Shown: positions 5,936 to 20,781 of the stretch, piece after piece
Layout of the letters: every line of letters starts with the position of its first letter
Position numbering within the stretch: position 1 is the stretch's first letter
Source of the DNA: Geminicoccus roseus DSM 18922
Lineage (GTDB): Bacteria; Pseudomonadota; Alphaproteobacteria; Geminicoccales; Geminicoccaceae
DNA: 64,000 nucleotides
Assembly (NCBI RefSeq): GCF_000427665.1
Contig: NZ_KE386572.1
Coordinates: forward strand, 2,814,196-2,878,195
Direction: 5' to 3'
The notes under the pieces: generated by a model
What the model saw: the letters and a program-made list of their open reading frames with translations, nothing else
Database searches by the model: none
What the model was told of the DNA's origin: nothing
Program-made: the position numbers and the translations under genes

Positions 5936-7078
5936 GTGACAGCAGTGCCGGAGATCGATCCGCGTTTCTGGGAAGGCCGCAAGGTCCTGGTCACGGGCCA
6001 TACCGGCTTCAAGGGCAGCTGGCTTACCGCCTGGCTCACGCAGATGGGATCGAGGGTCACCGGGTTCGCCGGCACGCCGCCCACCGATCCGTCCCTGTTC
6101 GCCGCCGCCGGCTTGGCCGGGCGGATCGAGCATCGCGAAGGCGATGTCGCCGATCCGGAGGCGCTGCGGGCGGTGGTCGAGGAGGCTCAACCCGAGGTGG
6201 TGCTCCATCTGGCCGGGCAGGCGATCCTGCAGCAGGGCCACGACGATCCGGTCGGCACGTTCCGAACCAACCTGATGGGCACCGTCGCGATGCTGGACGC
6301 GATCCGCCGGATAGGCTCGGTCCGGGCCGCGGTGCTGGTGACCTCCGACAAATGCTACCTGGACCAGCGCCGGACCTGCGCCGAGGACGACCCGCTCGGC
6401 GGCTACGAGGCCTATGGCGCATCCAAGGCCTGCGCCGAGATCGCGATCCAGTCGTTCCGGGCCTCCTATTTCCCGGGCAGCCTGACCTGCGGCCTTGCCT
6501 CGGCACGGGCCGGCAACGTGTTAGGGGCCGGCGACTTCGCGCCGCACCGGCTGGTCCCGGATCTCGCCCGGGCCTTCCTGCAGGGCGAACCGCCCAGGCT
6601 GCGCAATCCCGACGCGGTGCGGCCATGGCAGCACGTGCTGGACGCGGTCTCGGGCTATCTCCTGCTGGCCCAGAGGCTGCACGAGCGGCCCGAGGCCCAT
6701 GCCACTGCCTGGAACTTCGGGCCGCCGGCGGGCAGCGAGTGGACCGTGGCCAGGATCGCGGAGACGCTGGCCGGCGCGTTCGGCATCCAGGGCTGGGAGG
6801 CGGCACCGCCGCTCTCCGCCCGCGAGGAGGCGGTGCTGCGGCTGAACACCGGCCGGGCCGGACGCCGCCTGTCCTGGCAGCCCCGGCTCGGCATGGCCGA
6901 GGCGCTGCGCTGGACCGCCCAGGGCTACAAGCGCCTGGCCCGCGACGGCGATGCCGGCTGGCTGGACGAGCAGATCGCCCTCTACCGCAGCCGCACCGGC
7001 ACGCTCGATCAGCCGGACGGCGCCACGTTGCTGGATCTCCCTGCCCATGCCCGGAGACACGCCCATGTCGCGGCCTGA
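5936..7078 (+). CDS. rfbG: CDP-glucose 4,6-dehydratase
   Basis: Short-chain dehydrogenase/reductase that converts CDP-D-glucose to CDP-4-keto-6-deoxyglucose, the branch point for CDP-linked deoxyhexoses of surface polysaccharides. About 380 residues. The N terminus has the NAD+ motif VTGHTGFKGSWL (the GHTGFKGSW form is characteristic of RfbG), followed by LVTSDKCY and the catalytic YGASK near residue 162, then RAGNVLGAGDFAPHRLVPD and the PWQHV motif of this family. Start is GTG 5936 or GTG 5945, both with plausible ribosome binding sites. First gene of a polysaccharide operon; its product and that of rfbF supply consecutive steps. Confidence 0.93.
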   Translation: MTAVPEIDPRFWEGRKVLVTGHTGFKGSWLTAWLTQMGSRVTGFAGTPPTDPSLFAAAGLAGRIEHREGDVADPEALRAVVEEAQPEVVLHLAGQAILQQGHDDPVGTFRTNLMGTVAMLDAIRRIGSVRAAVLVTSDKCYLDQRRTCAEDDPLGGYEAYGASKACAEIAIQSFRASYFPGSLTCGLASARAGNVLGAGDFAPHRLVPDLARAFLQGEPPRLRNPDAVRPWQHVLDAVSGYLLLAQRLHERPEAHATAWNFGPPAGSEWTVARIAETLAGAFGIQGWEAAPPLSAREEAVLRLNTGRAGRRLSWQPRLGMAEALRWTAQGYKRLARDGDAGWLDEQIALYRSRTGTLDQPDGATLLDLPAHARRHAHVAA

Positions 7079-7889
7079 GCCGGCGGAGGTCCCGGTCTTC
7101 ATCCTGTGCGGCGGGTTCGGCACGCGCCTGGGCCATCTGGCCGCCGATCGCCCCAAGCCCATGGTCGAGATCGGCGACCGGCCGATCCTCCAGCACATCA
7201 TGGAGGTCTACGGCCGCCAGGGCTTCCGCCGCTTCGTGCTCTGCACCGGCTGGCGCGCCGACGTGATCGGCGAGTTCTTCGCCCACTGGCATCTGTGGAA
7301 CGCCGACTTCACCGTCAACCTGCGCGACCGCTCGGTCGCCTGGCACCAGACCCGCGCCTGGCCGGACTGGGACGTCACCGTCGCACAGACCGGCGTCGGC
7401 ACCATGACCGGCGCCCGGATCGCCCGGGCCGCCGCGCGCTATCTGGGCGATGCCGAGCATTTCGCGGTCACCTATGGCGACGGCCTGGCTGATGTCGACC
7501 TGATGGCCGAGTTCGACTTCCATCGCGACCATGACCGGCTGGCCACCATGCTGGGGGTGCAGCCGCCCTCGCAGTTCGGCCAGATCCAGCTCGACGGCGA
7601 CGGCCCGACCCGGTTCACCGAGAAGCCGCCGCGCACCGACCAGTGGATCAACGGCGGCTACTTCTTCTTCCGCCGCGGCATGCTCGGCTACCTGTCCGAG
7701 CAGCCGGGCTGCGTCCTCGAGGCCGAGCCGCTGCAGCGCCTGGCCGAGGACAACCAGCTGCGCGTGCACAAGCATGCCGGGTTCTGGTCCTGCATGGACA
7801 CCAGCCGCGACAAGGAGCGGATCGAGGCGCTCTGGGAAGCCGGCGCCGCCCCCTGGGCCGGCCGGGTCGGAGGGCTGCTTGATGCGTGA
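7065..7889 (+). CDS. rfbF: Glucose-1-phosphate cytidylyltransferase
   Basis: Makes CDP-glucose from CTP and glucose-1-phosphate, the substrate of RfbG. The 274-residue protein carries the nucleotidyltransferase loop LCGGFGTRLGHLAADRPKPM at the N terminus, YGDGLADVD (metal-binding Asp) near residue 135, and the RfbF-specific WINGGYFFF and HAGFWSCMDTSRDK segments. The ATG at 7065 has GGAG eight bases upstream and overlaps the end of rfbG by 14 bases; an in-frame ATG at 7047 is a less likely alternative. The inverted order rfbG-rfbF relative to many gamma-proteobacterial clusters does not affect the pathway. Confidence 0.94.
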   Translation: MSRPEPAEVPVFILCGGFGTRLGHLAADRPKPMVEIGDRPILQHIMEVYGRQGFRRFVLCTGWRADVIGEFFAHWHLWNADFTVNLRDRSVAWHQTRAWPDWDVTVAQTGVGTMTGARIARAAARYLGDAEHFAVTYGDGLADVDLMAEFDFHRDHDRLATMLGVQPPSQFGQIQLDGDGPTRFTEKPPRTDQWINGGYFFFRRGMLGYLSEQPGCVLEAEPLQRLAEDNQLRVHKHAGFWSCMDTSRDKERIEALWEAGAAPWAGRVGGLLDA

Positions 7890-8433
7890 GATCGGCCGGC
7901 CGCTCCCGGGCATGCGGGTGTTCGACCTGGACCCCCGCGCGGACGAGCGCGGCTCGTTCACCCGCCTGTTCTGCCAGTCGACGCTGGCCGAACTCGGCTT
8001 CGACGCCGGTGCCGTCCAGGTCAACCTGTCCCGCTCGACCCGGGCCGGCACCCTGCGCGGCCTGCACTACCAGCTCGGAGATGCGGCGGAGTTCAAGCTC
8101 GTCACGGTCCTGGCCGGGGCCGCCCAGGACGTGGTGCTGGATCTTCGCCCCGGCAGCCCGAGCTTCGGCGCCCATGCCAGCCTGCGCCTGGATGCCGGGC
8201 GGCCCCAGGCTGTCCTGGTCCCGGCCGGCTGCGCCCATGGCTTCCTGACCGCGACCGACGCCACCGTGCTGCTCTACGTCACCTCGCGCCCGCACGCGCC
8301 GGTCCACGAGCGCGGGGTGCGCTGGGACGATCCGGCGTTTCGGATCGGCTGGTCGGGCGCGCCGCTGGTGCTGTCCGCGAAGGACCGGAGCCTGCCGGAC
8401 TTCGATCCCCGTTGGCATCTGGCGGCAGCGTGA
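7882..8433 (+). CDS. Nucleotide-sugar 3,5-epimerase (RmlC-like cupin)
   Basis: RmlC-type epimerase of 183 residues that should invert C3 and/or C5 of a 4-keto-6-deoxyhexose nucleotide. Catalytic residues of RmlC are present: His62 in RGLHYQ, His119 in VPAGCAHGFL, and Tyr132. It overlaps the rfbF stop by eight bases, so it most likely works on CDP-4-keto-6-deoxyglucose rather than on the dTDP sugar; no dTDP-glucose genes (rmlA, rmlB) are in the window. The combination is inference from context. In dideoxyhexose pathways such as CDP-ascarylose an epimerase of this type also occurs, but the 3-dehydrase expected there is absent here. Confidence 0.85.
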   Translation: MREIGRPLPGMRVFDLDPRADERGSFTRLFCQSTLAELGFDAGAVQVNLSRSTRAGTLRGLHYQLGDAAEFKLVTVLAGAAQDVVLDLRPGSPSFGAHASLRLDAGRPQAVLVPAGCAHGFLTATDATVLLYVTSRPHAPVHERGVRWDDPAFRIGWSGAPLVLSAKDRSLPDFDPRWHLAAA

Positions 8434-8443
8434 GGAGGCCGGC

Positions 8444-9448
8444 ATGCGCGTCCTGATGACCGGTGCGAGCTCGTTCACCGGCGCCTGGATGGCCAGGCGC
8501 CTGGCCGGATCCGGGGCGGTGGTGACCGCCGCCCGCCGCGGCCGGACGGCCGAGGATGGTCCGCGGGTCCGCGAGCGCAGCGCGCTCCTGGCCCGGCGGG
8601 TACGCCAGGTCGACGAGGCGCCGTTCGGGTCCGACCGCTTCCTCGACCTGCTGGCGAACGAGGGTCCCCACGACATCCTGTGCATGCACGGCGCAACCGT
8701 CGGCGACCATCGCGCCGCCGACTTCGACGTGGTCGGGGCGCTGCGCGCCGACACCCATCGGATCAACCGGGTCCTGGAGCGGTTCGCCGCGCGCGGCGGC
8801 CGCACCCTCGTCTTCACCGGCACAGTGTTCGAGGCCGACGAGGGGCGCAGCGAAGCGCCCTGGGGCGCCATCGGCGGCTATGGCCTTGCCAAGTCGCTGA
8901 CCTGGCAGGTGGTCCGCCACGCCGCCGAGGAACGCCAGCTGTCCTTGGGCAAGTTTGTGATCCCCCATCCGTTCGGGCCGATGGAGAAGCCTGGCCTCAC
9001 CAGCATGCTGGCAGAATCCTGGCTCACCGGACAGGTGCCGACCCTGAAGGAGCCTGGCCTCGTCCGCGACCACATCCATGTCGACCTCCTGGCGCACGCC
9101 TATGCGCGGTTCGTGCACGAGACCCATGGCCGCCCGGACCCGAAGACGGTCCGGCATTGCGGACCCTCCGGCCGCGTCGAGACGATCGCCGGCTTCACCG
9201 CCCGCTTCGCCCGGGCCCTGGGCCCGCTCTTCGGCGTGCCGACCCGCTGGTCCGCGCAGAGCGGCCCGGGCGACCGGGTCCAGCCGCGGATCCGCTGCAA
9301 CACCGAGCCCACCGCCACCCTGCACCCGGATTTCGACGAGGCGCGGGCGTTCGAGGAACTGGCGGTCTGGTACCTGCAGCGCTTTGGCGGGGGCGGGCAT
9401 GCGCGGCGGCTGGCACGCCTGGTCGAACGCGTCTTCGAGCCGGCGTGA
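8444..9448 (+). CDS. NAD-dependent epimerase/dehydratase (SDR), probable 4-ketoreductase of the CDP-sugar branch
   Basis: Extended short-chain dehydrogenase of 334 residues. The N terminus has a Rossmann dinucleotide motif TGASSFTGAW, and the catalytic Tyr-Lys pair is in GGYGLAKS near residue 147. HPFGPMEKPG and RDHIHVDLL are segments typical of nucleotide-sugar reductases/epimerases. Placed 10 bases after the 3,5-epimerase, it is the natural candidate for the final 4-keto reduction to a CDP-6-deoxyhexose. Whether it reduces or epimerises cannot be read from the sequence. Cytoplasmic. Confidence 0.8.
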   Translation: MRVLMTGASSFTGAWMARRLAGSGAVVTAARRGRTAEDGPRVRERSALLARRVRQVDEAPFGSDRFLDLLANEGPHDILCMHGATVGDHRAADFDVVGALRADTHRINRVLERFAARGGRTLVFTGTVFEADEGRSEAPWGAIGGYGLAKSLTWQVVRHAAEERQLSLGKFVIPHPFGPMEKPGLTSMLAESWLTGQVPTLKEPGLVRDHIHVDLLAHAYARFVHETHGRPDPKTVRHCGPSGRVETIAGFTARFARALGPLFGVPTRWSAQSGPGDRVQPRIRCNTEPTATLHPDFDEARAFEELAVWYLQRFGGGGHARRLARLVERVFEPA

Positions 9449-9453
9449 CGGCG

Positions 9454-10392
9454 ATGCCCGGCCGCCCCGACATCGGCGTGATCGTGGTGACCCATGCAAG
9501 CCGCCGCCACCTGGACCGCTGCCTGCCGCCGCTGCTGGAGGCGCCGGAGCGGCCGCGGGTCCTGGTGGTCAACTCGTCCTCCGGCGACGGCACCGTCGAG
9601 CGGGCCCGGGCGCTGGGGGCGGAGACCTGGCTGGTGCCGCGGCAAAGCTTCAACCATGGCGCCACCCGCGAGCAGGCCCGCCGCCTGCTGGGCACCCCGG
9701 TCGTGGTGATGCTGACGCCGGACGCCTATCCGGCAGGGCCCAGCGAACTCGGTCGGCTGGTCCACCCGGTCCGGACCGGCCAGGCCGCCTGTGCCTATGG
9801 CCGCCAGCTCCCGCATGAGGGAGCCGATGCGGTCGAGGCGTTCGGCCGCGCCTTCAGCTATCCCGGCCAGAGCGAGCTGCGCTCCGCCCGCGACCAGGCC
9901 CGGCTCGGCAGCGGCGTGCATTTCTGTTCCAACGCCTGGGCCGCCTGGTCCAGCGCCGCCCTCGACCGGATCGGCGGGTTCCAACCGACCCTGGTGAGCG
10001 AGGAGACCATCGCGGTCGCCCGGCTGCTCCAGGCCGGCGAACGGGTCGCCTATGTCGCCGACGCCGTTGTCCGACACTCCCACCGCTACGGGCCGGTGCA
10101 GGAGTTCCGCCGCCATTTCGACATCGGCTGGACCCGCGCCCACCACGCCGCCCTGCTGCTGGCTTCCGGCGGCGACCAGGCCCGGGGCCGCCGGTTCGCC
10201 CGCCTGCTGCTGCGCGACCTGGCTGCCCGGGCGCCGGCGCGGCTTCCGGGCGTGCTCGTCGCGCTGGCCGCCAAGTGGCTGGGCTACCGGGCCGGCATGC
10301 TCGGCGCCCACCTGCCGAACCCGCTGGCCGCCATCCTGTCGGGCCAGGACTTCTTCTGGCGCAGCGACTTTGCACCGGGGAGGCAGCCATGA
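9454..10392 (+). CDS. Glycosyltransferase family 2
   Basis: GT-A fold glycosyltransferase of 312 residues, probably adding a 6-deoxyhexose or other sugar to a polyprenyl-linked oligosaccharide at the inner membrane. The start has the GT2 pattern IGVIVVTHASRRHLDRCL, VVNSSSGDGT (nucleotide-binding Asp) follows near residue 45, LTPDAYP is in the DXD position, and GGFQPTLVSEE is the acceptor-side acidic motif. The fold resembles bacterial rhamnosyltransferases, where an insertion of this size follows the DXD. Translation can start at ATG 9454 or at GTG 9445, which overlaps the preceding stop. Donor and acceptor are unknown. Confidence 0.85.
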   Translation: MPGRPDIGVIVVTHASRRHLDRCLPPLLEAPERPRVLVVNSSSGDGTVERARALGAETWLVPRQSFNHGATREQARRLLGTPVVVMLTPDAYPAGPSELGRLVHPVRTGQAACAYGRQLPHEGADAVEAFGRAFSYPGQSELRSARDQARLGSGVHFCSNAWAAWSSAALDRIGGFQPTLVSEETIAVARLLQAGERVAYVADAVVRHSHRYGPVQEFRRHFDIGWTRAHHAALLLASGGDQARGRRFARLLLRDLAARAPARLPGVLVALAAKWLGYRAGMLGAHLPNPLAAILSGQDFFWRSDFAPGRQP

Positions 10393-11510
10393 GGATCGCG
10401 ATCGTCACCAACAACGTGCTGCCGCCGCGGGAAGGGATCGGCCGGCATGTTCTGGAGACCGCGCAGCGCCTGGCCGCACGCGGCCACCAGGTCGAGGTGC
10501 TGGCCAAGGGCGAGGCGTTCGGCGAGGTCCGCACCAGCAAATTCGACCGGGTCCGCGTCCACCACTGGCCGCACCGGCCGCTGCGCCCTTTCCATCACCA
10601 GGCCACCCGCCCGCTGCTCCAGGACCTCCTGGACCGCCTGGGGCCATTCGACCTGCTGCACGCCCACCTGCCGCTCCTGCCGCTCCTGCGCACCGATGCC
10701 CGGGTGGTGGTCACCTGCCATGGCACCCTTGCCGCCGACACCGAATCCTTCACCGAGCGGTCCTGGCGCGCCGGGCTGATCCGGGGACAGGCCCGGCTGG
10801 TCGCCCGGCCGATGGAGCGGGCCTGGTTCGGCCGGGCCGAGCGGGTCGTGGCGGTGGCGGACTGCGTGAGGGAGGAGATCGTCCAGCGCTACGGCGTGGC
10901 GCCCGGCAAGGTCGCGGTCGTCCGCAACGGGGTGGACCTCGCCCGGTTTCCCTTCGAGCGCCGGGTGCGCGGCGGGACGCGGCTCCTGTTCGTCGGCCGC
11001 CTGGGCTGGCGCAAGGGCCTGTTCCGGCTGCTCGACGCGATGGCGAGGCTGCCCGACGAGGTCACCCTCGACCTGGTGGGCGAGGGGCCCCTGGAGGCCG
11101 ACCTGCGCAGCCACGCCATCCAGCTCGGGCTGGCGCACCGGCTGCACTTTCACGGCTTTCTGCCCCATCCGGAGGTGATCCTGGCGCATCGCGCCGCCGA
11201 CCTGTTCGTCAATCCCGCCGACTATGAGACCGGTCCGCTGACCCTCCTGGAAGCGATGGCGCTGGGCACGCCCCTGATCACCACCGCCACCGGCCTTGTC
11301 CGGGAAGTCGCGGCCGGCGCGCAGCTGCGCATCGCCGAGCGCACACCCGAGGCGCTGGCCGACGCGATCCGGTCGAGCCTGGGGAGCCCCGCCGAGATGG
11401 CGCGGCGCGCCCGCGACGCCCGCCGCACCGTGGAGCGCCAGCTCGGCTGGGAGCGGACGGTCGACGAACTCGCCGATCTTTTCGAGGAATCTCATCGAAA
11501 GGCTGCCTGA
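10389..11510 (+). CDS. Glycosyltransferase family 4
   Basis: GT-B fold transferase of 373 residues. The N-terminal domain starts MRIAIVTNNVLPPREGIGRHV, with the glycine-rich acceptor loop of GT4, and HAHLPLLPLL near residue 95 is the usual acceptor-domain His region. The C-terminal donor domain begins near residue 195 with LLFVGRLGWRKGL, and carries the E-x7-E type signature in FVNPADYETGPLTLLEAMALG. ATG overlaps the preceding stop (ATGA), showing translational coupling. Membrane-associated assembly of the repeat unit is likely. Donor sugar unknown. Confidence 0.88.
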   Translation: MRIAIVTNNVLPPREGIGRHVLETAQRLAARGHQVEVLAKGEAFGEVRTSKFDRVRVHHWPHRPLRPFHHQATRPLLQDLLDRLGPFDLLHAHLPLLPLLRTDARVVVTCHGTLAADTESFTERSWRAGLIRGQARLVARPMERAWFGRAERVVAVADCVREEIVQRYGVAPGKVAVVRNGVDLARFPFERRVRGGTRLLFVGRLGWRKGLFRLLDAMARLPDEVTLDLVGEGPLEADLRSHAIQLGLAHRLHFHGFLPHPEVILAHRAADLFVNPADYETGPLTLLEAMALGTPLITTATGLVREVAAGAQLRIAERTPEALADAIRSSLGSPAEMARRARDARRTVERQLGWERTVDELADLFEESHRKAA

Positions 11511-11513
11511 ACC

Positions 11514-13298
11514 ATGACTGGCCACGACGTCCTCGTCTGTTTCGGATTCGAGCAAGATCGCATCCGCCGCCAGCCATGGCATGTCGCGCGCGGCATCGCG
11601 CTCGGCCTGCGCGCGCGCGGCCGGCGGGTGACCATGCTCACCGATGCCGCCGCTCCCCCGGCCGGCGAGCCGTTCGCGGTGGCAAGCGTGCCCAGGCTGT
11701 TCGGACGCGACGAGCCCACCCGGGCGACCCGGGAGGCGCTGGCCGAGCTTCGGCCCGAGCGGATCTTCGTGGTGGTCGGCATCCACGAGTTCCTGCGGCC
11801 TGGCCGGTTCCGGCTGGGGGCGCCCACCTTCCTGGTGGTGGCGGCGCAGCCGTTCCGGCTGGGCGACTTCCTGCGGATCGCGCCGCTGGACCTGTGGCGC
11901 GAGCGCCATCTGCTCGGCCGCGCCCTGCTGGGCTCGCTGCTGCCGGGTGCCATGCTGCGCCGCGGGTTCAGGGCCAGCGGCGCCTCCGGCCTCGTCTTCG
12001 TGTCCGAGGCGGCCAAAGCGCGCTTCGCCGAGCTGGGGATCGAGGCGTCGGTGACCATCCATCCGCAGGTCGAGCCTCCCGCAGCACCGCCCGCCCGGGT
12101 CGGCACCTGGATCCCGACCATCCTCTACAGTGGCCCGCCCTTGGCCCTGCGCGGCGCCGACCTGGCGCTGCAGTCCTTCGAATATGCGAGGGCAGCGGGG
12201 CTGACGGCGCGGCTGCAGCTCCTGCTGCGGCCGGACGACCGGCCGGAGGCCACCCAGCGCTTCCTGGCGCGGGTCGAGCGCTCGCCCTGGCGCGCCTCCA
12301 TCGAGGTGGTGACCGGGATGCTTTCCGCCGACGAGATGAGCCGGCGCCTGTCCGCCGCCGACGTCCACCTGCTGCCGTTCCGGGTCACCGTCTCGGACGC
12401 CCCGCTGGTGGTGATCGAGGCCGGGCTCACCGGCCGGCCGGTCGTGGTGCTGGACACGGCTGGGGTCACCGAGTTCGCCCGCGCCTTCGACGGCCTGGTC
12501 GCGGCCTCCGCCGACGCGCTGCCCGACGCGCTGCGCCAGGCCTGCAGCCGGCCCCGCCAGGCGGTTGCGGCGCAGGGCTGGACCCGCTGGGAGCAGGCGG
12601 TGGCTCCCCTGGCCGAACTGGCGCCGCTCGGGCCCGAGCGCCTGGGCACGGTCGCCCTGATCGGCATCGACGGTGCCGGCAAGTCGGTGCTGGCCCAGCG
12701 GCTGCAGGCCCGCCTGGCGGATGCCGGCCATCGCAGCACCCATGTCTGGAGCCGCTTCCGCAACTATCTGAGCAAGCCCCTCCTGGCCCTGGCCCGCCTG
12801 ACCGGGCACAACCGCAAGCTGGTGGTCGGCGGGGTGAAGGTCGGCGTCCACGATTTCGAGAACCGGTACGGCCGGCCGTTCGTTTTCCTGCAGCGGATCG
12901 ACCTCGTGCTGGATGCCTGGCTGCGGGTGCGGCCCGCTTCGGCGCGCGGGCTCGTGGTGATGGACCGCTGCGCCCTGGACCAGCTGGTGGATGTCGCGGT
13001 CGATACCGGCCTCGACGACGAGCTCATCGACCGGCTGGCGCCGCGCCTGTTCGCGCTCCTGCCGCAGCCGGCCAAGGTGGTGCTGGTCGAGCGCGAGCCG
13101 CTGCTGATCGGCCGGACGCGTCCGGACGCCCTGATGGATCCCAAGCTCCTGCGCCGCCGGGCTGTCTACCGGCGCCTGGCCGCCCGCCTGGGGCTCCCTG
13201 TGCTCCTGAACGACGGCAGCATCGAGGCGGCCGACCAGCAGCTCGACCGGATCGTGGGCCTTGCACCGCCCTCCGACGCGCTAAGGGCGCAGGGTTGA
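11514..13298 (+). CDS. Fusion protein: GT-B glycosyltransferase domain plus thymidylate-kinase-like P-loop kinase domain
   Basis: A 594-residue two-domain protein in one uninterrupted frame. Residues 1-370 look like a GT4-type glycosyltransferase: LFVSEAAKARF-like acceptor segment, ILYSGPPLALRGADLAL, and VSDAPLVVIEAGLTGRPVVV near residue 303 in place of the usual donor-binding E-x7-E. From about residue 378 a P-loop kinase follows: Walker A GIDGAGKS (384-391), VWSRFRN near 422, and the DR motif of thymidylate kinases in MDRCALDQLVD (Asp484-Arg485). The kinase part has no stop or start between it and the transferase. It overlaps the next gene (TTGA). The kinase may phosphorylate a sugar or lipid acceptor; thymidylate itself is unlikely in this context. 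Function is not known. Confidence 0.78.
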   Translation: MTGHDVLVCFGFEQDRIRRQPWHVARGIALGLRARGRRVTMLTDAAAPPAGEPFAVASVPRLFGRDEPTRATREALAELRPERIFVVVGIHEFLRPGRFRLGAPTFLVVAAQPFRLGDFLRIAPLDLWRERHLLGRALLGSLLPGAMLRRGFRASGASGLVFVSEAAKARFAELGIEASVTIHPQVEPPAAPPARVGTWIPTILYSGPPLALRGADLALQSFEYARAAGLTARLQLLLRPDDRPEATQRFLARVERSPWRASIEVVTGMLSADEMSRRLSAADVHLLPFRVTVSDAPLVVIEAGLTGRPVVVLDTAGVTEFARAFDGLVAASADALPDALRQACSRPRQAVAAQGWTRWEQAVAPLAELAPLGPERLGTVALIGIDGAGKSVLAQRLQARLADAGHRSTHVWSRFRNYLSKPLLALARLTGHNRKLVVGGVKVGVHDFENRYGRPFVFLQRIDLVLDAWLRVRPASARGLVVMDRCALDQLVDVAVDTGLDDELIDRLAPRLFALLPQPAKVVLVEREPLLIGRTRPDALMDPKLLRRRAVYRRLAARLGLPVLLNDGSIEAADQQLDRIVGLAPPSDALRAQG

Positions 13299-14401
13299 TC
13301 CGGGTCTTCTACGCCAACGACCCGCAGGCGGCCGACCAGGGCGGCGGCGCCGAGCATTTCCGCGGCATCTTCCGCGCCCTGGCCGGCTCGGACCTGGACT
13401 GGCGGCTGGTGGCGGCCCGCCTGCAGGACCAGGACCATCCCCGGATCGACTACATCTCCCGCAGCTCGCATTTCGGCCGCTGGTACCTGGCCCTGTGGTG
13501 CTGGTTCTGGCGCAACCGCCACCGGATCGGCCGGGACGAGGTCCTGCATTTCCACCGCAACTACGCGGCCTGGCCGAAATACCTGCTTTGCCCCGGGCGC
13601 GGCCGGGTGGTGATCACCTACCACAATGTCAGCGGCCGGGTGCTGGACGGCCTGCTCGGGCGGCTGGCGCGCCCGATCCGCTTCTGGATGAAGCTGCTGG
13701 AGCGCCGGGCGGTGTCCCTGGCCGACCGGCTGGTCTGCGTCAGCGAGCGCGACCGCGCGGAACTGGAGCGCACGGTGGCGCCCGCCGCCTTCGCCCGCGC
13801 CGCCGTGCTGGCAGCCTCCGTGGACCTGCAGGGGCTGGCCGACCCGCCGCCGCGTCCGCCAGGCTCCTGCCAGCACCTCCTCCTGCTCGGCCGGCTGGAG
13901 CACCAGAAGAACCCGGAACGGGCGGTCGAGGTCCTGGAGGAACTGGTCCGACGGGACGACCAGGGCTGGACCCTCAGCATCGCCGGCGCCGGCAGCCTGC
14001 AGGCCCGGCTGGAGCGGCGGATCGCCGCCAGCCTGGCGCGCGGCCGTATCAGCTGTCTGGGCCTGGTCCCGCACGACCGGGTTGCGGCCCTTCTGGATGC
14101 CCACGACCTGCTGCTGCTCACCAGCCGCTACGAGGCCTCGCCGACCGTGGTGAAGGAGGCGTTGCTGCGGCAGCGGCCGGTGGTCGCCACCGATGTCGGC
14201 GACGTCCGGCGCTGGATCGAGCCCGGCAGCGGGCTGGTGTGCGACGACGATCCGGTGGCTCTGGCCGACGGGGTCCGGGCAATGGCGACGGTGCTCTCGT
14301 GCGGCGGCTACCGGCCGTCCAGCCGGCTGTCCGGCGATGTCGAGCGGGACCTGATGCAGCCGCTCATCGACCTCTACCGCACGGTCCTGGCTGGCGCGTG
14401 A
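13295..14401 (+). CDS. Glycosyltransferase family 4
   Basis: GT-B fold transferase of 368 residues, the third transferase of this operon. N-terminal FYANDPQAADQGGGAEHFRG is the glycine-rich loop; VITYHNVSGRVLDGL is the acceptor-domain central segment. The donor domain begins near residue 190 with LLLLGRLEHQKNPERAVEVL, has GLVPHDRVAALLDAHDLLLL, and ends in the donor signature SRYEASPTVVKEALLRQRPVVATDVGD. Start is TTG 13295, overlapping the preceding stop as TTGA, with AAGGG upstream; no ATG or GTG gives a full N-terminal strand. Donor sugar unknown. Confidence 0.86.
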   Translation: MIRVFYANDPQAADQGGGAEHFRGIFRALAGSDLDWRLVAARLQDQDHPRIDYISRSSHFGRWYLALWCWFWRNRHRIGRDEVLHFHRNYAAWPKYLLCPGRGRVVITYHNVSGRVLDGLLGRLARPIRFWMKLLERRAVSLADRLVCVSERDRAELERTVAPAAFARAAVLAASVDLQGLADPPPRPPGSCQHLLLLGRLEHQKNPERAVEVLEELVRRDDQGWTLSIAGAGSLQARLERRIAASLARGRISCLGLVPHDRVAALLDAHDLLLLTSRYEASPTVVKEALLRQRPVVATDVGDVRRWIEPGSGLVCDDDPVALADGVRAMATVLSCGGYRPSSRLSGDVERDLMQPLIDLYRTVLAGA

Positions 14402-15648
14402 CCGCCCTTCAGGATCGCCTGCTGCCGCTGCTGGTCGGTACCGGCGCCCGCCTGGCTGCGGCCTGCATCGGGCTGCTCGGCACCATGGTGGCCGCGCGGG
14501 CGCTGGGTCCGGAAGGCTGGGGCGCCTGGGTGGTGCTGTTCGCGCTGTTTGGCTGGAGCCAGCATGTCGCGGAATGGGGGCTGCGCGGCGTCGCCCTGCA
14601 GGAAGGCGGGCGGCGGGGGCATGCCTGCCCTGGTCTGGTGCGGGACCTGCTGCGGGCGCGGCTCCTGCCGCTTGGGCTGGCGATCGCCGGCCTTGTCGCC
14701 GCGACCCTGCTCTGGCGCCCCGAACTCCTGGTGGCGACGGTTTGGCTGGCCCTGGCCCTGGCCGCGATCGCGGTCAACCTAGACTGGGCGGCCCTGGTGC
14801 GGGGCAGCCCGCTGCCGGCGGGCGCCACCCAGGTCCTGCGCCCGGTCCTGTTCCTGCTGGCCGTGCTGCTCCTGCCGGGGCCGCTGGGTGCTGGCGGGCT
14901 GGCGTTCGCCACCTTCGCCGGCTGGGCGGGCTCGGCGGCGCTGGCGGCGCTGGAGCTCAAGCGGATGCCGCCAGCACCGTTTGGCCGGCGGCCGCTGGGT
15001 GCCGGCCGCCTCCTGTCCGCGGGTACCCCCTATTTCCTGGTCAGCGCCGCCAACCAGCTGGCGCTGTCGGCGGACCTGCTCCTGGTGGCGCTGGTGCTGG
15101 GCACGAAGGCCGCCGGCACGTTCGGTCTGGTGGTCACCATTGCGCAGACCGCGACCCTGGCGGCCCAGGCGAGCGCGCAATGGTGGCTGGCCCAAGGGGG
15201 CCTCGCCCGGGCCGGGTCGCCGGGTCCGGCGCGGCTGCGCCTGGTCCTGGTCGAGACCGGGACGCTCGGCCTGCTGGCGGCAGCCGGCCTGGCGGTGCTG
15301 GGACCGCCCCTGGTGCGGCATCTGTTCGGGCCGGCCTGGCAGGCGGCGGCCCTGCTGTTGCCGATGGCGAGCCTCTATGTGGTGCTGGTCCATGTCTCGG
15401 CGGTGCTGGCGGCTCTGGCCTGCGCGCAAGGCGCGGCGCGCCAGGTGGCCGGGCTGCAGCTCGGCAGCCAGGTCCTGTCCTGGCCGGCACTGCTGCTGCT
15501 GGCCGGGTGGTGGGGGCTGGAGGCGGCGGTCCTGCTGCGCGGCGGCGTCGAGCTGGCGCGGGTGCTGGGGCTGGCATGGATCTGCCGATACCTGCCGGCG
15601 GTGCAGGTCCGACCAGAAGCGAATCCTGATCCGGTGATAATTCAATAA
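14398..15648 (+). CDS. Polysaccharide flippase (Wzx/oligosaccharide translocase type)
   Basis: Integral membrane protein of 416 residues, very rich in Leu, Ala, Val and Gly, with about twelve hydrophobic segments spread over the whole length. The N-terminal segment GLLGTMVAARALGPEGWGAWV is the pattern of the polysaccharide_synt/MATE-like flippases that move undecaprenyl-linked repeat units to the periplasmic face. It starts at GTG 14398 overlapping the previous stop (GTGA) and is the last gene of the operon. No Wzy polymerase, Wzz or initiating phosphoglycosyltransferase is in the window, so polymerisation and export must use genes elsewhere. Confidence 0.83.
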   Translation: MTALQDRLLPLLVGTGARLAAACIGLLGTMVAARALGPEGWGAWVVLFALFGWSQHVAEWGLRGVALQEGGRRGHACPGLVRDLLRARLLPLGLAIAGLVAATLLWRPELLVATVWLALALAAIAVNLDWAALVRGSPLPAGATQVLRPVLFLLAVLLLPGPLGAGGLAFATFAGWAGSAALAALELKRMPPAPFGRRPLGAGRLLSAGTPYFLVSAANQLALSADLLLVALVLGTKAAGTFGLVVTIAQTATLAAQASAQWWLAQGGLARAGSPGPARLRLVLVETGTLGLLAAAGLAVLGPPLVRHLFGPAWQAAALLLPMASLYVVLVHVSAVLAALACAQGAARQVAGLQLGSQVLSWPALLLLAGWWGLEAAVLLRGGVELARVLGLAWICRYLPAVQVRPEANPDPVIIQ

Positions 15649-15818: not shown

Positions 15819-16793
15819 ATGGCTGCTTCGACCCGCGAGCTGCATGCGTTGCTCAACCGCGAGAGCCGGGCGTTCCGCGAGGAGCGGCGCAGCGCCACGG
15901 TGACCCGCTTCCCGTCGTGGCGGAGCCGCTCGCCGGAGCTGGAGCTGGAGCATCTGAGCGTGGAGCTGGATGCCTCGGCGGGTCTGCTGTTCGCGCGGAT
16001 GAAGCACCGCGCCCGGGCCTGCTACACCCCGGCCCTGATGCAGGACATGCGCCGCCTGCAGCACCACCTGGTCGAGCTCTATGCCGGCCGCCCGGCCGAG
16101 GAGATCCCGTTCCGCTACCTGGTCTGGGCGTCCGAGGCGCCCAAGGCCTGGAGCCTGGGCGGCGATCTCGCCACCTTCACCGGGATGATCCGTGCCAAGG
16201 ACGAGGCCGGGCTGCGCGCCTACGCCCATCTCGCCATCGACATCCTGCACGACAACCTGACCAGCCTGGGCCTGCCGATCCTGACCGTGGCGCTGATCCA
16301 GGGCGACGCGATCGGCGGCGGCTTCGAGGCGATGCTCACCGACGACCTGGTGATCGCCGAGGCTAGCGCCAAGTTCGGCCTGCCCGAGATCCTGTTCAAC
16401 CTGTTCCCCGGGATGGGCGGCTACAGCTTCCTCAAGCGCAAGCTGGGCGCCGCCCTGGCCCGGCAGATCCTGGAGGACGGCCTGTCCCGCTCGGCGGCCG
16501 AGGTCAAGGCGCTGGGCCTGGTCGACCTGGTCTGCGCCGAGGGTCAGGCCGAGGCGACCTTGCGCGGCTACGTCGCCGACAACGCCCGCCGCTTCAAGAC
16601 CCTGCTCACCCTCAAGCAGGTCCGCGAGCGCGCCGATCCGCCCTGCAAGGCCGAGCTGGTCGACATCGTCGACCTGTGGGTCGACCTCGCCCTCGACCTC
16701 GGCGAGGACGAGCTGCGCCGCATGGACTGCCTCGCCCGTGTCCAGGAAAAAAAGCGGGCGACCCCGGGCGGCCGCAGCTGCACCGCCGCCTGA
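15819..16793 (+). CDS. rpfF: DSF synthase (RpfF, crotonase family)
   Basis: Crotonase-fold enzyme of 324 residues that makes cis-2-unsaturated fatty-acid signals (diffusible signal factor) by dehydrating 3-hydroxyacyl-ACP and releasing the acid. RpfF-specific features are the oxyanion segment WSLGGDLATFTGMIRAKDE (110-129) and the two catalytic glutamates, Glu170 in QGDAIGGGFEAML and Glu190 in GLPEILFNLFPGMGGYSF; these stand 20 residues apart, as Glu141 and Glu161 do in Xanthomonas RpfF. An ordinary enoyl-CoA hydratase would not have the LFNLFPGMG stretch. Start ATG has GGAG eight bases upstream. The gene ends in a strong terminator and faces an RpfC-like kinase operon, as in Xanthomonas. The 170 A/T-rich bases before it contain its promoter. 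Confidence 0.9.
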   Translation: MAASTRELHALLNRESRAFREERRSATVTRFPSWRSRSPELELEHLSVELDASAGLLFARMKHRARACYTPALMQDMRRLQHHLVELYAGRPAEEIPFRYLVWASEAPKAWSLGGDLATFTGMIRAKDEAGLRAYAHLAIDILHDNLTSLGLPILTVALIQGDAIGGGFEAMLTDDLVIAEASAKFGLPEILFNLFPGMGGYSFLKRKLGAALARQILEDGLSRSAAEVKALGLVDLVCAEGQAEATLRGYVADNARRFKTLLTLKQVRERADPPCKAELVDIVDLWVDLALDLGEDELRRMDCLARVQEKKRATPGGRSCTAA

Positions 16794-16826
16794 TCTTCTT
16801 TCCGTTTTTCTCCGCGTTCCCCGCTC

Positions 16827-16865
16827 GGCGCGATGCCTCCCGGCATCGCGCCTTTTCTTTGTTTT
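16827..16865 (+). terminator. Intrinsic terminator of rpfF
   Basis: An 11-base perfect stem, GGCGCGATGCC (16827-16837) and GGCATCGCGCC (16842-16852), with a TCCC loop, is followed by TTTTCTTTGTTTT. It lies 33 bases after the rpfF stop and is a textbook rho-independent terminator. Confidence 0.93.
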
Positions 16866-18135
16866 CCGGGCTATCCGGTTGCAATGGCGATCCAACGCCG
16901 ATGCCAGCCTGGAACGGGCGGCCAGGCCGTCCGGCCACGACCAATGGGATCGGCCGGCGGGCCAACCTCACCCCCTAACCTTGGTCCCGCCCATCCTGAG
17001 AATCGGCCGGGCCGGATCGGCGGTGCTGCAGCTCCGCGCCGCAGGCATGGGCTGGCCGGCATGGGAGCAGTGGGGGGCTGTTCCGGAAGCTTCGCCGTTG
17101 CGGGCGGCCTTCGGGCAGACGCCGAACAGGACAGTCGCGCCGCTCGCACCGGTGCCCTGCTGCCTCGGCTGGCCTGCTCGGGCAGCAGTGACCAGGCGGA
17201 CGCTGCTGCCCGATGTCCGCCGGCAGCCTCTCCAGCACCGCAGGCACCTGCGACATGCTCGCAGCCGGATGGTGGCTCGATGCCGTTGCTGGGCGCGCGG
17301 CGTCCCTCCCGGACGGGAACGGTATGCCGGGTCACCGCCAGGCCCTGTGCGCCTGGATGAGCAATGCATGGCGCCACCGATCAGGTGGTGATGCACTGGA
17401 CCTGCCCCCAGGAGGGGACAGCCTCAGCGCCAGCAACCGGTCCGCCGGCAGAGCGATCAATGACGTGCTGGCAGCGGCTTGGAGGAATGTCGGTCAGCCG
17501 GTGCTGCTCAGGAGGCGCGCCGGCCGCTGCCAGTGGCTGGCGAAGGGGGCAGTGCTTCGGAAGCGGGCCTCCGGATACCACCTGATCCGAGGGAGGTCGC
17601 CGCAGGCGGCCATGTCGGGATGACGAGGAGGCGTTGAGGCCGCTCGAGGCTTGGGGCAGCACTCACCCAGGGGCCATCCCTGGGAAAGCCGCCGGTCGGG
17701 CGGGAGGGGACGCCTGTGTTCTCAGGACGGCCGCTTCGCGCCTCGCGCCCATTGCCGTCTCGGTGGAGCAGCGCCGGCTGAGGCGTTCAGGGTGGCTTTT
17801 CGTTCCGTCACTCGGGTCGGCGGGCCGAAAGTCTTAGGCTGCTGCTGGGACTGCCTGGGAAACGGGAATGGATCTGGTCCCGGCTCCCGGCCATGGCGAA
17901 GGTTTGACGTCGTGCCGGGATGGCGCCTGAAGCGGCCGGACCGCCGGAGGGCCATGCGCCGGGAAGGCGCCTTGAGGAATCCGGCTGCCTTCCATGGGCA
18001 GGTTCCGCGGCGCGGCTTCCGCAACCAGCCCGTTCCGCCCGGTTAAAGCCGGCACGGAGCGGAACGGCCGCCTCGCCAGGGCGCACGGACCTCGGCCACG
18101 GAACGTCCCGGAGCAGGATCCGGATGGACAAGGAT
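16866..18135. other. Long gene-free spacer between convergent rpfF and rpfC
   Basis: About 1.27 kb between the rpfF terminator and the rpfC stop codon. Several open frames cross it on both strands, but none has a ribosome binding site, a recognisable domain or a family resemblance, and the translated products are rich in Arg, Pro and Ala as expected of chance frames in high-GC DNA. I see no tRNA or mobile element. It may hold a decayed gene or a non-coding RNA; neither can be shown here. Confidence 0.5.
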
Positions 18136-20754
18136 CTAGCTTCTCCCGGCGTGCTCGGTTTGCCAGGCCAGCAGGCCGGTCGCGGCCCGTTCCAGTTCCA
18201 GCTGGAGGCGCTGGACTTCCGCCGGGCCGCGCGCCAGCAGCCGGGCGTCGTCCAGGCCGCGCCAGCCCAGCAGCACGTCGAACAGCGCGCTCGCCCCGAC
18301 ATGGGCGGCGCTGCTGCGCAGGGCATGGGCATGGTCGCGCATGGCGGCGGCATCGCCCTCCGCCACCGCCCGCTCGATCGCGTGGATCAGTTCGCCGGCC
18401 TCGGCGACGAAGGTGTCGATCAGCTCCTCCACGAAGCCGTCGCCATGGTCCAGCGCCGCCAGCCCGTCCAGCTTGCGCCGGTCGAGGGCAGGCCGGCCTT
18501 CGCTGGCGGGGGCCAGCGCCAGGGCCGGGCGGGCCTCGGCGGGCGCGGCGGGCCGTGCCGGCAGGTCCGGCCTTGCCGGCGCAGCCGGTCGTGGAGGCGC
18601 CGCCCTCTGGCCTGATGTGGCGGGATGGACGACGCGCAGGCTGGCGGGGGCCGGGGGTGGACTGGCGGGGGGCTGGGGGCGGACGCGGTTCTCGACCAGG
18701 CGGTCGATCTGGGCCAGCAGGATGGGCGCGTCGATCGGCTTCACGGCATGGCCGGCAAAGCCGACCTGGCGGCATTCCTCGACGGTGGCCTCGGTGACGT
18801 CGGCGGTCAGCGCCAGCACCGGCGGCAGCTCGTCCTCGACAAAGCGCAGCAGCTTGAGCGCCTCGATCCCGCTCATGCCCGGCATGTTCAGGTCCATCAG
18901 CACCAGGTCGAACGCCTCGGCGGCGATCCGGTCGACCGCCTCCTGCCCGGAGCCGACCACCACCACCTGGTGCCCGGCGCTCTCCAGGATCCGCCTGGCC
19001 ACCTGCTGGTTGGTCAAATTGTCCTCGGCCACCAGCAGCCGGGCCGGATGCGCCGCCCGCACCGGCGCCGGGCGGCCGTCGGGCAGGGCCTGGTGCGGCG
19101 CCAGCGCCGCGCGCACCAGCACCGGCAGGTCCCGCTCCAGGTCCGGCGCCGCCAGCGCCGCCAGGGCAGCGTCCGGGACCGGCCGCTCCGGCGGCTGCAC
19201 CAGCACCAGGTCGACGCTGCCCTCGATCCGCCGCGCCACCAGCTGGGCCAGCTCGGCCAGGTCCTCGGCCAGCGGCTCGGCCAGCACCAGCAGCTTGCGG
19301 CCATGGCCCAGGCGCAGCGCCCGCACCGCGCTGGCCAGGTCGCCGGCGGCCATGGCCGCAGCGCCGGCCGCCTCCACCGCCGCCCGGGCCCGCGCCGCCA
19401 GGTCTCCCCGGCCCAGCACCACCACGGTGCCGTGCAGCGGGAAGGACGCCACCGTCGGGGCCGGGGCCGGCGCCAGCGGCAGCACGAAGCCGAACCGGGC
19501 GCCTTCGCCCACCGTACTGGCCAGGGTCAGCCGCCCGCCCATCAGCTCCACCAGCTCCTTGGCGATGGTCAGCCCCAGCCCGGTGCCGCCATAGGCCCGG
19601 TTGGTGGTGTCCTCCGCCTGGGTGAAGCTCTCGAAGATCCGCGCCTGCAGCTCAGGCGGGATGCCGATCCCGGTGTCCTCGACCACGAAGCCGACCCCGG
19701 CCCGGCCGTCCGGCAGCGCCGCCCTGGCCACCCGCAGGGTCACCCCGCCCTGCTCGGTGAACTTCAGCGCGTTGGCGACCAGGTTGGCCAGCACCTGCTG
19801 CAGGGCGGCGACGTCGCCCGACAGATGCGGCGGCACGCTTGGGTCCAGCACCAGGCGCAGCCACAGGCCGCGCGCCTGCGCCTGCGGCTCCAGCATGCCG
19901 CGCAGGACGCCCAACAGCGCGTGCAGGTCGAACGGCTTGGTCACCACCACGAACCGGCCGGCCTCGATCTTGGCCGCGTCCAGCACCGCGTCGACCAGCC
20001 CCAAAATGGTGCCGGCCGCGGTGCGGATCGTGCCGACCATCTCGCGCCGGTCGTCGTCGGCCTCGTCCTGGCGCAGCAGGTCGGACAGGCCGATCACCGC
20101 GTTGAGCGGGGTGCGGAACTCGTGACTCATCACCGCCAGGAACCGGCTCTTGGCCTGGTTGGCGGCCTCGGCGCGGCGGATCGCCTGCTCCAGCTTGCGC
20201 AGCAGCACCGACACGTAGGCCGGCAGCACCACCAGGGCCAGGATCATCGCCACGTCCAACGCCGGCACCTGCCGCCAGTCCGGGTTGAGCAGCACCACCA
20301 GCCCGAACAGCACCAGCGACACCGCCGCCGAGCCGAACAGATAGGGCCGGCCATAGCGAAAGCCGTGGCCGAAGATGATCCACAACAGGATCGGGTAGAA
20401 CGGCGCCGCGGTCATCCCCCCCGCCAGCATCACCGCGTTCACCCCGCCGGTGTCGATCAGCATCCCCAAAACCCGGCGCACCACGCTCACCCCGGGCCAC
20501 ACCAGAATATGCACCAGAACCAGAACCGCCAAAACCAGCGCAACCACGCTGATCCCAAGGCCCAGCAGGAGGAACCGGGCCGGATCGGCATGGGTGGGGG
20601 AGGCGGCCAGGATGTAGAGGGCGATCGCCAGCGCGAACCCGATCCGGATCAAGGCCTGCTCGTGCTCGGTGTCCGGACGCGAGGCCAGGCGCTGGCGGAA
20701 CCTGGCCAGGAGGCCCGGCCGCTCGGCCGGCGGGACCGGTTCAGCCGCGGCCAA
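18136..20754 (-). CDS. rpfC: RpfC-like hybrid sensor histidine kinase (TM input, HisKA, HATPase, REC, HPt)
   Basis: 872-residue hybrid kinase, the probable DSF receptor. The cytoplasmic N-terminal stretch RLASRPDTEHEQ (23-34) matches the juxtamembrane input region of RpfC, followed by about five to six membrane segments (residues 36-190). HisKA has His211 in SHEFRTPLN; the ATPase has N-box LVANALKFTE, G1 EDTGIGIP and G2 GGTGLGLTIAKEL. A degenerate receiver-like segment (440-550) precedes a true receiver with Asp578 and phospho-acceptor Asp621 in LMDLNMPGMSG and Lys672. A Pro/Ala-rich linker (692-755) leads to an HPt domain with His810 in AHALRSSAAHVG. Start is TTG 20754, 27 bases after the stop of the response regulator gene, so both are one operon, convergent to rpfF. 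Autophosphorylation and relay to the neighbour are inferred. Confidence 0.88.
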   Translation of the reverse strand: MAAAEPVPPAERPGLLARFRQRLASRPDTEHEQALIRIGFALAIALYILAASPTHADPARFLLLGLGISVVALVLAVLVLVHILVWPGVSVVRRVLGMLIDTGGVNAVMLAGGMTAAPFYPILLWIIFGHGFRYGRPYLFGSAAVSLVLFGLVVLLNPDWRQVPALDVAMILALVVLPAYVSVLLRKLEQAIRRAEAANQAKSRFLAVMSHEFRTPLNAVIGLSDLLRQDEADDDRREMVGTIRTAAGTILGLVDAVLDAAKIEAGRFVVVTKPFDLHALLGVLRGMLEPQAQARGLWLRLVLDPSVPPHLSGDVAALQQVLANLVANALKFTEQGGVTLRVARAALPDGRAGVGFVVEDTGIGIPPELQARIFESFTQAEDTTNRAYGGTGLGLTIAKELVELMGGRLTLASTVGEGARFGFVLPLAPAPAPTVASFPLHGTVVVLGRGDLAARARAAVEAAGAAAMAAGDLASAVRALRLGHGRKLLVLAEPLAEDLAELAQLVARRIEGSVDLVLVQPPERPVPDAALAALAAPDLERDLPVLVRAALAPHQALPDGRPAPVRAAHPARLLVAEDNLTNQQVARRILESAGHQVVVVGSGQEAVDRIAAEAFDLVLMDLNMPGMSGIEALKLLRFVEDELPPVLALTADVTEATVEECRQVGFAGHAVKPIDAPILLAQIDRLVENRVRPQPPASPPPAPASLRVVHPATSGQRAAPPRPAAPARPDLPARPAAPAEARPALALAPASEGRPALDRRKLDGLAALDHGDGFVEELIDTFVAEAGELIHAIERAVAEGDAAAMRDHAHALRSSAAHVGASALFDVLLGWRGLDDARLLARGPAEVQRLQLELERAATGLLAWQTEHAGRS

Positions 20755-20781
20755 GCCGCATCTTCCCGCAGGTCCGCCGCC

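Follow-up and report, generated by a model that had tools for sequence, protein, structure and literature searches.

A glycosyltransferase fused to a thymidylate-kinase-like domain in Geminicoccus roseus, a candidate enzyme of glycan phosphorylation

The window analysed here is the whole 64-kb stretch of DNA (64,000 nucleotides) taken from Geminicoccus roseus DSM 18922. It carries a nine-gene glycan operon, one member of which is a single reading frame that joins a glycosyltransferase domain (GTf) to a P-loop kinase domain (K). The genes of the operon, with the fusion divided into its two parts, are as follows.

5945..7078, + strand: CDP-glucose 4,6-dehydratase (NCBIfam CDP_4_6_dhtase, 370 bits, cut-off 278)
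7065..7889, + strand: glucose-1-phosphate cytidylyltransferase-like protein (NCBIfam G1P_cyt_trans, 269 bits, below the cut-off of 300)
7882..8433, + strand: RmlC-like sugar epimerase (Pfam dTDP_sugar_isom, E 2e-51)
8444..9448, + strand: SDR, presumed from its Pfam Epimerase match to act as a sugar ketoreductase
9454..10392, + strand: GT2-type glycosyltransferase (Pfam Glyco_tranf_2_3)
10389..11510, + strand: GT4a, a GT4-type glycosyltransferase (its homologue Haur_5094 precedes GTf-K in Herpetosiphon, phmmer E ~5e-43)
11514..12638, + strand: GTf, the GT4-type glycosyltransferase domain of the fusion (residues 1-375, boundary at about 375)
12639..13298, + strand: K, the thymidylate-kinase-like P-loop kinase domain of the fusion (residues 376-594 and the stop)
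13295..14401, + strand: GT4b, a GT4-type glycosyltransferase (Pfam Glycos_transf_1)
14398..15648, + strand: putative Wzx-type flippase (weak match to Pfam Polysacc_synt, 20.2 bits, cut-off 28.2; conserved position in the operon)

The order of this block, namely dehydratase, cytidylyltransferase, RmlC-like epimerase, SDR, GT2, GT4a, fusion, GT4b and flippase, is kept around the fusion (script gene calls, 22 of 23 loci, no genes being called in L049). Homologues of genes one to nine occur at 17, 18, 16, 19, 19, 20, 19, 18 and 10 other loci, respectively; for GT4a and the fusion, the split locus L083 (see below) may be among those counted, and in all these figures contig ends and missed gene calls are taken together as the source of absent genes. 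The block was not found at L048 (G003). The first four genes (5945-9448), among which there is no dideoxy-sugar enzyme, are predicted to be a CDP-6-deoxyhexose pathway. No ABC transporter was matched in the nine-gene operon, and no Wzy_C protein in the operon or the 64-kb window; eight Wzy_C matches lie elsewhere in the genome. An earlier note on this DNA took the surrounding genes to be polysaccharide genes throughout, which describes the block from 5945 to 15648 but not what lies beyond it. Adjoining the operon are a crotonase-family protein (15819-16793; NCBIfam PRK08788 above the cut-off, the RpfF model below it) and two frames (18136-20754 and 20782-22917) whose translations resemble a hybrid sensor kinase and a response regulator of the GGDEF/EAL type; the genes of 15819-22917 are perhaps a DSF-type signalling set.

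The fusion frame (11514-13298, + strand) begins with ATG and encodes 594 amino acids with no internal stop. Its length alone is no proof of a gene, because long antisense frames (up to 855 amino acids) arise by chance in this GC-rich window, and the case for the fusion therefore rests on homology. GTf is homologous along its whole length to separate glycosyltransferase genes that adjoin a kinase elsewhere, and it scores 32.7 bits against Pfam Glyco_trans_1_4 (cut-off 27) over residues 213-343. The match of K to Pfam Thymidylate_kin stays below the cut-off of 27, at 16.5 bits (residues 384-407) within the whole fusion and at 20.4 bits for the domain alone. The frame is 70% identical to that of Geminicoccus harenae (L028), and in each half the third codon position accounts for most of the differences between the two (84/66/173 by codon position in the glycosyltransferase half, 34/38/92 in the kinase half). 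Could a sequencing error have joined two genes, as the earlier note allowed? Whole fusions recur in independent assemblies, in 18 of 31 genomes of the family, so a joining error is ruled out as the origin of the frame, and the first reading of one uninterrupted frame holding a transferase and a P-loop kinase is borne out by both homology and recurrence.

The glycosyltransferase half belongs to GT4 by its Pfam GT4-type domain, which scores above the cut-off. The motif of GT4 enzymes is EX7E; in 11 aligned GTf sequences the second Glu (302) is invariant, and the first position (294) is an invariant Ser. This deviation leaves GTf in the GT4 fold family, many members of which may deviate as well.

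The kinase half carries four conserved motifs.

12663..12686, + strand: Walker A, GIDGAGKS (residues 384-391; none of the 18 fusions or the 15 aligned kinases departs from GxDGxGK)
12747..12779, + strand: signature WSRFRNYLSKP (residues 412-422; W and the first R invariant in 15 kinases)
12963..12992, + strand: DRxxxDxxVD motif (residues 484-493; its R and its two later D the same in all 15 kinases)
13119..13127, + strand: RPD (residues 536-538, presumed to lie in the LID region; among 15 kinases the R never varies and the P hardly ever)

The Walker A and DR motifs named in the first reading are thus present, from residue 384 onward and at 484-485. All 18 aligned fusions (the window, L028 and 16 others) retain in their kinase part GxDGxGK, W412, R414, R416, S420, P422, DR 484-485, D489, D493, RPD 536-538 and R548. 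In the alignment of 15 kinases, which takes in fused and split genes, the invariant positions are the equivalents of G384, D386, G387, G389, K390, W412, R414, G431, F456, D463, R485, D489, D493, R536, D542 and R548; the residue before the invariant R of the DR motif (D484-R485 in the fusion) is D or E. Homologues lacking catalytic residues, which would have refuted the first reading, were not encountered among the 15 kinases, where the motifs are kept. This retention bears on the idea that K transfers no phosphate, being instead a pseudo-kinase or a module for regulation or assembly that is driven by ATP. Its acceptor region is indeed unlike that of any family matched in Pfam, but even distant lineages retain the Walker A Lys, the DR motif and several Arg and Asp, a pattern expected of an active enzyme, and we regard the idea as very improbable.

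The closest relationship of K is to thymidylate kinase (TMK). A K profile set against an alignment of 10 TMKs from relatives gives a probability of 95 (E 3.2e-8), and the kinase homologue of G610 exceeds the Pfam Thymidylate_kin cut-off (29.1 vs 27). A low-confidence predicted model of K (2 sequences, mean pLDDT 55), from which no residue claims are drawn, has a TMK as its best Foldseek match (E 2.7e-5) and superposes on TMK in VIA-align with Z 11.3 and rmsd 3.9 over 163 aligned residues. While K shares this profile similarity, the P-loop and the DR motif with dTMP kinases (PF02223), it differs in its acceptor motifs and in being fused to or paired with a glycosyltransferase. The TREPGG motif, invariant in the 10 TMKs, and the D-S-x-x-x-Y-Q-G stretch that follows DR in them are found in none of the 15 aligned kinases, which have WSRFRNYLSKP and DRxxxDxxVD; the former stands where TMKs have TREPGG, an equivalence judged from where the two motifs lie, beyond the first helix and strand, and not from a residue alignment. 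Because TREPGG and DS...YQG are missing and the genome has a separate canonical tmk (C5:4521339-4521908), K is most likely a TMK relative with another acceptor, and a role as dTMP kinase is disfavoured. The TMK relationship could also suggest that K, as a kinase of the NMP type, recycles the nucleotide that GTf sets free. Against such recycling, however, stand the missing TREPGG and YQG, the existence of a housekeeping tmk, the occurrence of the same GTf-K pair beside different sugar pathways (see below), and the chemistry of GT4 enzymes, whose product nucleotide is NDP and not NMP; we judge it very improbable.

The whole fusion is found in 18 of the 31 genomes of the family, G. roseus included (the order comprises the same 31), and also in G. 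harenae. The kinase profile matches 23 of the 31 at E 0.001 or better; G003 matches at the P-loop only, so that 22 carry the kinase, with the fusion cut into pieces at contig ends in G022, G025, G026 and G028. The fusion is missing from nine of the 31, G003 among them, and in one of these, G001, the absence may be an assembly gap, since that genome is in 1150 contigs and no tmk was seen in it either. No stand-alone kinase was seen in the family. Among 385 genomes drawn from the class, the full-length kinase occurs in four, all of the same family, and in 16 others the match is confined to short profile segments around the P-loop; among 398 drawn from the phylum, it occurs in G. roseus and G610, with 12 others matching about the P-loop only. 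In the class of G610 it is found in one of 78 genomes, 48 others matching short stretches, mostly about the P-loop. A scan of genome contigs with a single-protein query, which reaches close relatives only, found L028 alone. Plasmid records yielded the kinase in Herpetosiphon alone. A phage origin is rejected: phage records gave no match to two stand-alone kinases, and viral contigs gave no kinase match.

Outside the family, the two halves of the fusion are encoded by neighboring genes. A GTf homologue lies directly upstream of the strong stand-alone kinase at 10 of 10 loci (eight in genomes from another class, one in a genome from a third, and one on the Herpetosiphon plasmid pHAU01), and the gap between the two genes is -25 to +2 bp in the nine pairs that could be measured. 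On pHAU01 of Herpetosiphon aurantiacus, Haur_5092 ('Thymidylate kinase-like') overlaps the glycosyltransferase gene Haur_5093, whose product is homologous to the glycosyltransferase half of the fusion (E ~1e-28) and has the fusion glycosyltransferase as its best match in all three genomes compared (G000, G006 and G014). The gene order GT4a-GTf-K is common to the window and pHAU01 (Haur_5094, Haur_5093, Haur_5092). The stand-alone kinase of G610, from the phylum draw of 398 genomes, overlaps its GTf by 11 bp. In the class that supplied the eight genomes (369 genomes), 10 genomes have a kinase match at 1e-10 or better, and in eight of them it is strong (E 2e-67 to 8e-53), each time with a GTf homologue immediately upstream, the reading at L148 being uncertain. 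There (L148:9718-13812) the frame of GTf shares a long stretch with that of the kinase, and a nucleotidyltransferase lies on the other strand, a layout that could be a frameshift, a rearrangement or a gene-call artefact.

The pairing is also seen from the side of the transferase. A GTf profile has matches at 1e-20 or better in 53 of the same 369 genomes, near-full-length only in the same eight (E 1.6e-51 or better, seven of the eight having been used to build the profile), and the next best (3e-29) extends over the C-terminal half. The search that the earlier note proposed, for the same fusion and for split versions, has thus turned up both, and K goes with GTf in every strong case examined, supporting the view that the kinase would act with the transferase. 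Distance matrices of GTf and K correlate over 11 pairs (r 0.93, Mantel p 5e-5), which fits joint inheritance and may reflect nothing more. The neighboring sugar pathways differ, with CDP-sugar genes in the window vs RmlA/B/C-like genes in some split loci, the latter named from weak matches and readings. Weaker kinase matches in G852 and G858 (three loci, E ~1e-14, profile positions ~1-134) lack an adjacent GTf and were left out of the member count. The kinases of L151, L152 and L153, weakly similar over the first 130 residues and without an adjacent GTf, are perhaps a related subfamily.

The split clusters contain further glycan genes. Alg14 and Alg13-like genes occur in 8 of the 10 loci, and 7 of the 10, L143 included, have a GT2 resembling the one in L143. 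Among the split loci scanned for export and polymerization genes (L143, L144, L147, L150 and L083), L143, L144 and L150 encode both flippase and Wzy_C proteins; a flippase is encoded in L147 and a Wzy_C protein in L083. A bifunctional ATP sulfurylase/APS kinase lies beside GTf-K in L143 (Pfam), with homologues in L144, L145 and L147, and sulfotransferases are encoded in L083, L144 and L147; the polysaccharides of GTf-K clusters with such genes may be sulfated.

A kinase in a glycan operon has a precedent in WbdD of E. coli O9a, likewise encoded with glycan assembly genes, and the earlier note had suggested, as an example, that the fusion caps or terminates a chain as WbdD does. Phosphorylation of the non-reducing end would then stop chain growth and set its length. 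According to the published account (PMC3482155), the kinase of WbdD adopts a eukaryotic protein-kinase fold and is linked to a methyltransferase, and the O-antigen that it serves is exported through an ABC transporter. Fold, partner domain and apparent export route all differ, and their counterparts are absent from the fusion and its operon: the kinase of the fusion is a P-loop TMK relative by profile, no methyltransferase domain matches the fusion at E 0.1, and the export gene looks like that of a flippase rather than an ABC transporter. The split clusters scanned for them, moreover, have flippase and/or Wzy-type genes, and in Wzx/Wzy systems chain length is set outside the cytoplasm. WbdD-type capping is disfavoured by the P-loop kinase, the missing methyltransferase match and the flippase-like export gene, and we consider it improbable.

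The split clusters have a third partner, a protein of ~215-270 amino acids with hydrophobic segments and a nucleotidyltransferase motif of the Pol-beta type (GS..SDxD). A profile search finds this membrane nucleotidyltransferase at every one of the 10 split loci; six of the 10 went into the profile, and L145, L146, L148 and L049 are the independent finds. The GS..SDxD pattern is present in nine, L049 reading GS...ADLD, and the Pfam NTP_transf_2 model is matched at 21.9 bits in L143 (cut-off 21) and below the cut-off in L144 and L150. The gene adjoins K in seven of the 10 (L143-L147, L149 and L049); in L083 a single gene separates the two, in L150 it is found upstream and in L148 on the other strand, and in L149 it is joined to an Alg14-like part. 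On pHAU01 its open frame (L049:10563-11216), directly after Haur_5092, is missing from the incomplete gene table. None of 21 fusion-bearing sources (the window, L028 and L029-L047) has it.

Considering this partner, the strongest rival to a joint action of GTf and K on a glycan is that K phosphorylates a small sugar or alditol, which the nucleotidyltransferase activates and GTf or another transferase places on the glycan. Such a pathway would explain why the nucleotidyltransferase accompanies K at every split locus, next to it in seven, and sugar-nucleotide genes do lie in the same operon. A known chain of this kind is LicA-LicC-LicD of the phosphocholine pathway (kinase, cytidylyltransferase and transferase), in which, as in the split loci, a kinase and nucleotidyltransferase-fold proteins serve a glycan; LicA is not known to be TMK-like, however, and the Lic pathway is not present in the window operon. 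Moreover, the Pol-beta type motif and the hydrophobic segments are as compatible with a transferase as with a synthetase, it is not obvious why a precursor kinase should be fused to a glycosyltransferase, and the nucleotidyltransferase was not found in the 21 fusion-bearing sources. That last absence favors, for the window, a kinase acting after sugar transfer, without settling the matter, and we think the precursor pathway unlikely.

How, then, might the fusion work? We give about even chances to a two-step enzyme of glycan assembly that transfers a sugar and then phosphorylates the product on its lipid carrier, before flipping. Working on the cytoplasmic side of the membrane, the N-terminal GT4 domain would extend a lipid-linked oligosaccharide by a sugar, which may be the CDP-6-deoxyhexose that genes one to four of the operon are predicted to make; the C-terminal TMK-like kinase would move a phosphate from ATP to a hydroxyl of the added sugar or of its neighbor; and the flippase would then carry the product across the membrane. 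The substrate of the kinase would most likely be a lipid-linked glycan or its immediate precursor. The fusion itself presumably arose by the joining of two overlapping, co-inherited genes, GTf and K, that are still separate in other bacteria. The spread of the fusion, its operon, the GTf-K pairing, the invariant catalytic-type residues and the separate tmk all speak for the two-step enzyme; against it, the nucleotidyltransferase of the 10 split loci fits a precursor pathway as well, the sugar pathways differ, and the first Glu of EX7E is Ser in GTf.

A wider proposal, which we offer tentatively and with the odds somewhat against it, is that GTf and K make up a glycan-modification cassette not yet described, joined in most lineages by the membrane nucleotidyltransferase. 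In it, a kinase family related to TMK would be dedicated to phosphorylating lipid-linked glycans, as part of a single enzyme in the Geminicoccus group, and elsewhere the nucleotidyltransferase would then add to the phosphate or pass it on. No recognisable paper on a glycosyltransferase-kinase pair was among the matches listed from open-licence PMC articles, which are not all that is in print. Together, the fusion and the distant pairs of neighboring genes suggest an undescribed kind of sugar-chain phosphorylation, with a predicted chemistry. To our knowledge, the known bacterial glycan kinases (WbdD, WaaP and KdkA) all have protein-kinase-type folds. The lipopolysaccharide core kinases WaaP and KdkA, which K may resemble in decorating a glycan with phosphate, have a protein-kinase-like fold that is not of the P-loop type, whereas K is a P-loop kinase. 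If the proposal is true, glycan phosphorylation would have a second evolutionary origin, in a P-loop relative of nucleotide kinases that works with one particular glycosyltransferase, and phosphate on surface polysaccharides would become predictable from sequence. The fused form provides a single protein in which the coupling of sugar transfer to phosphorylation could be tested directly.
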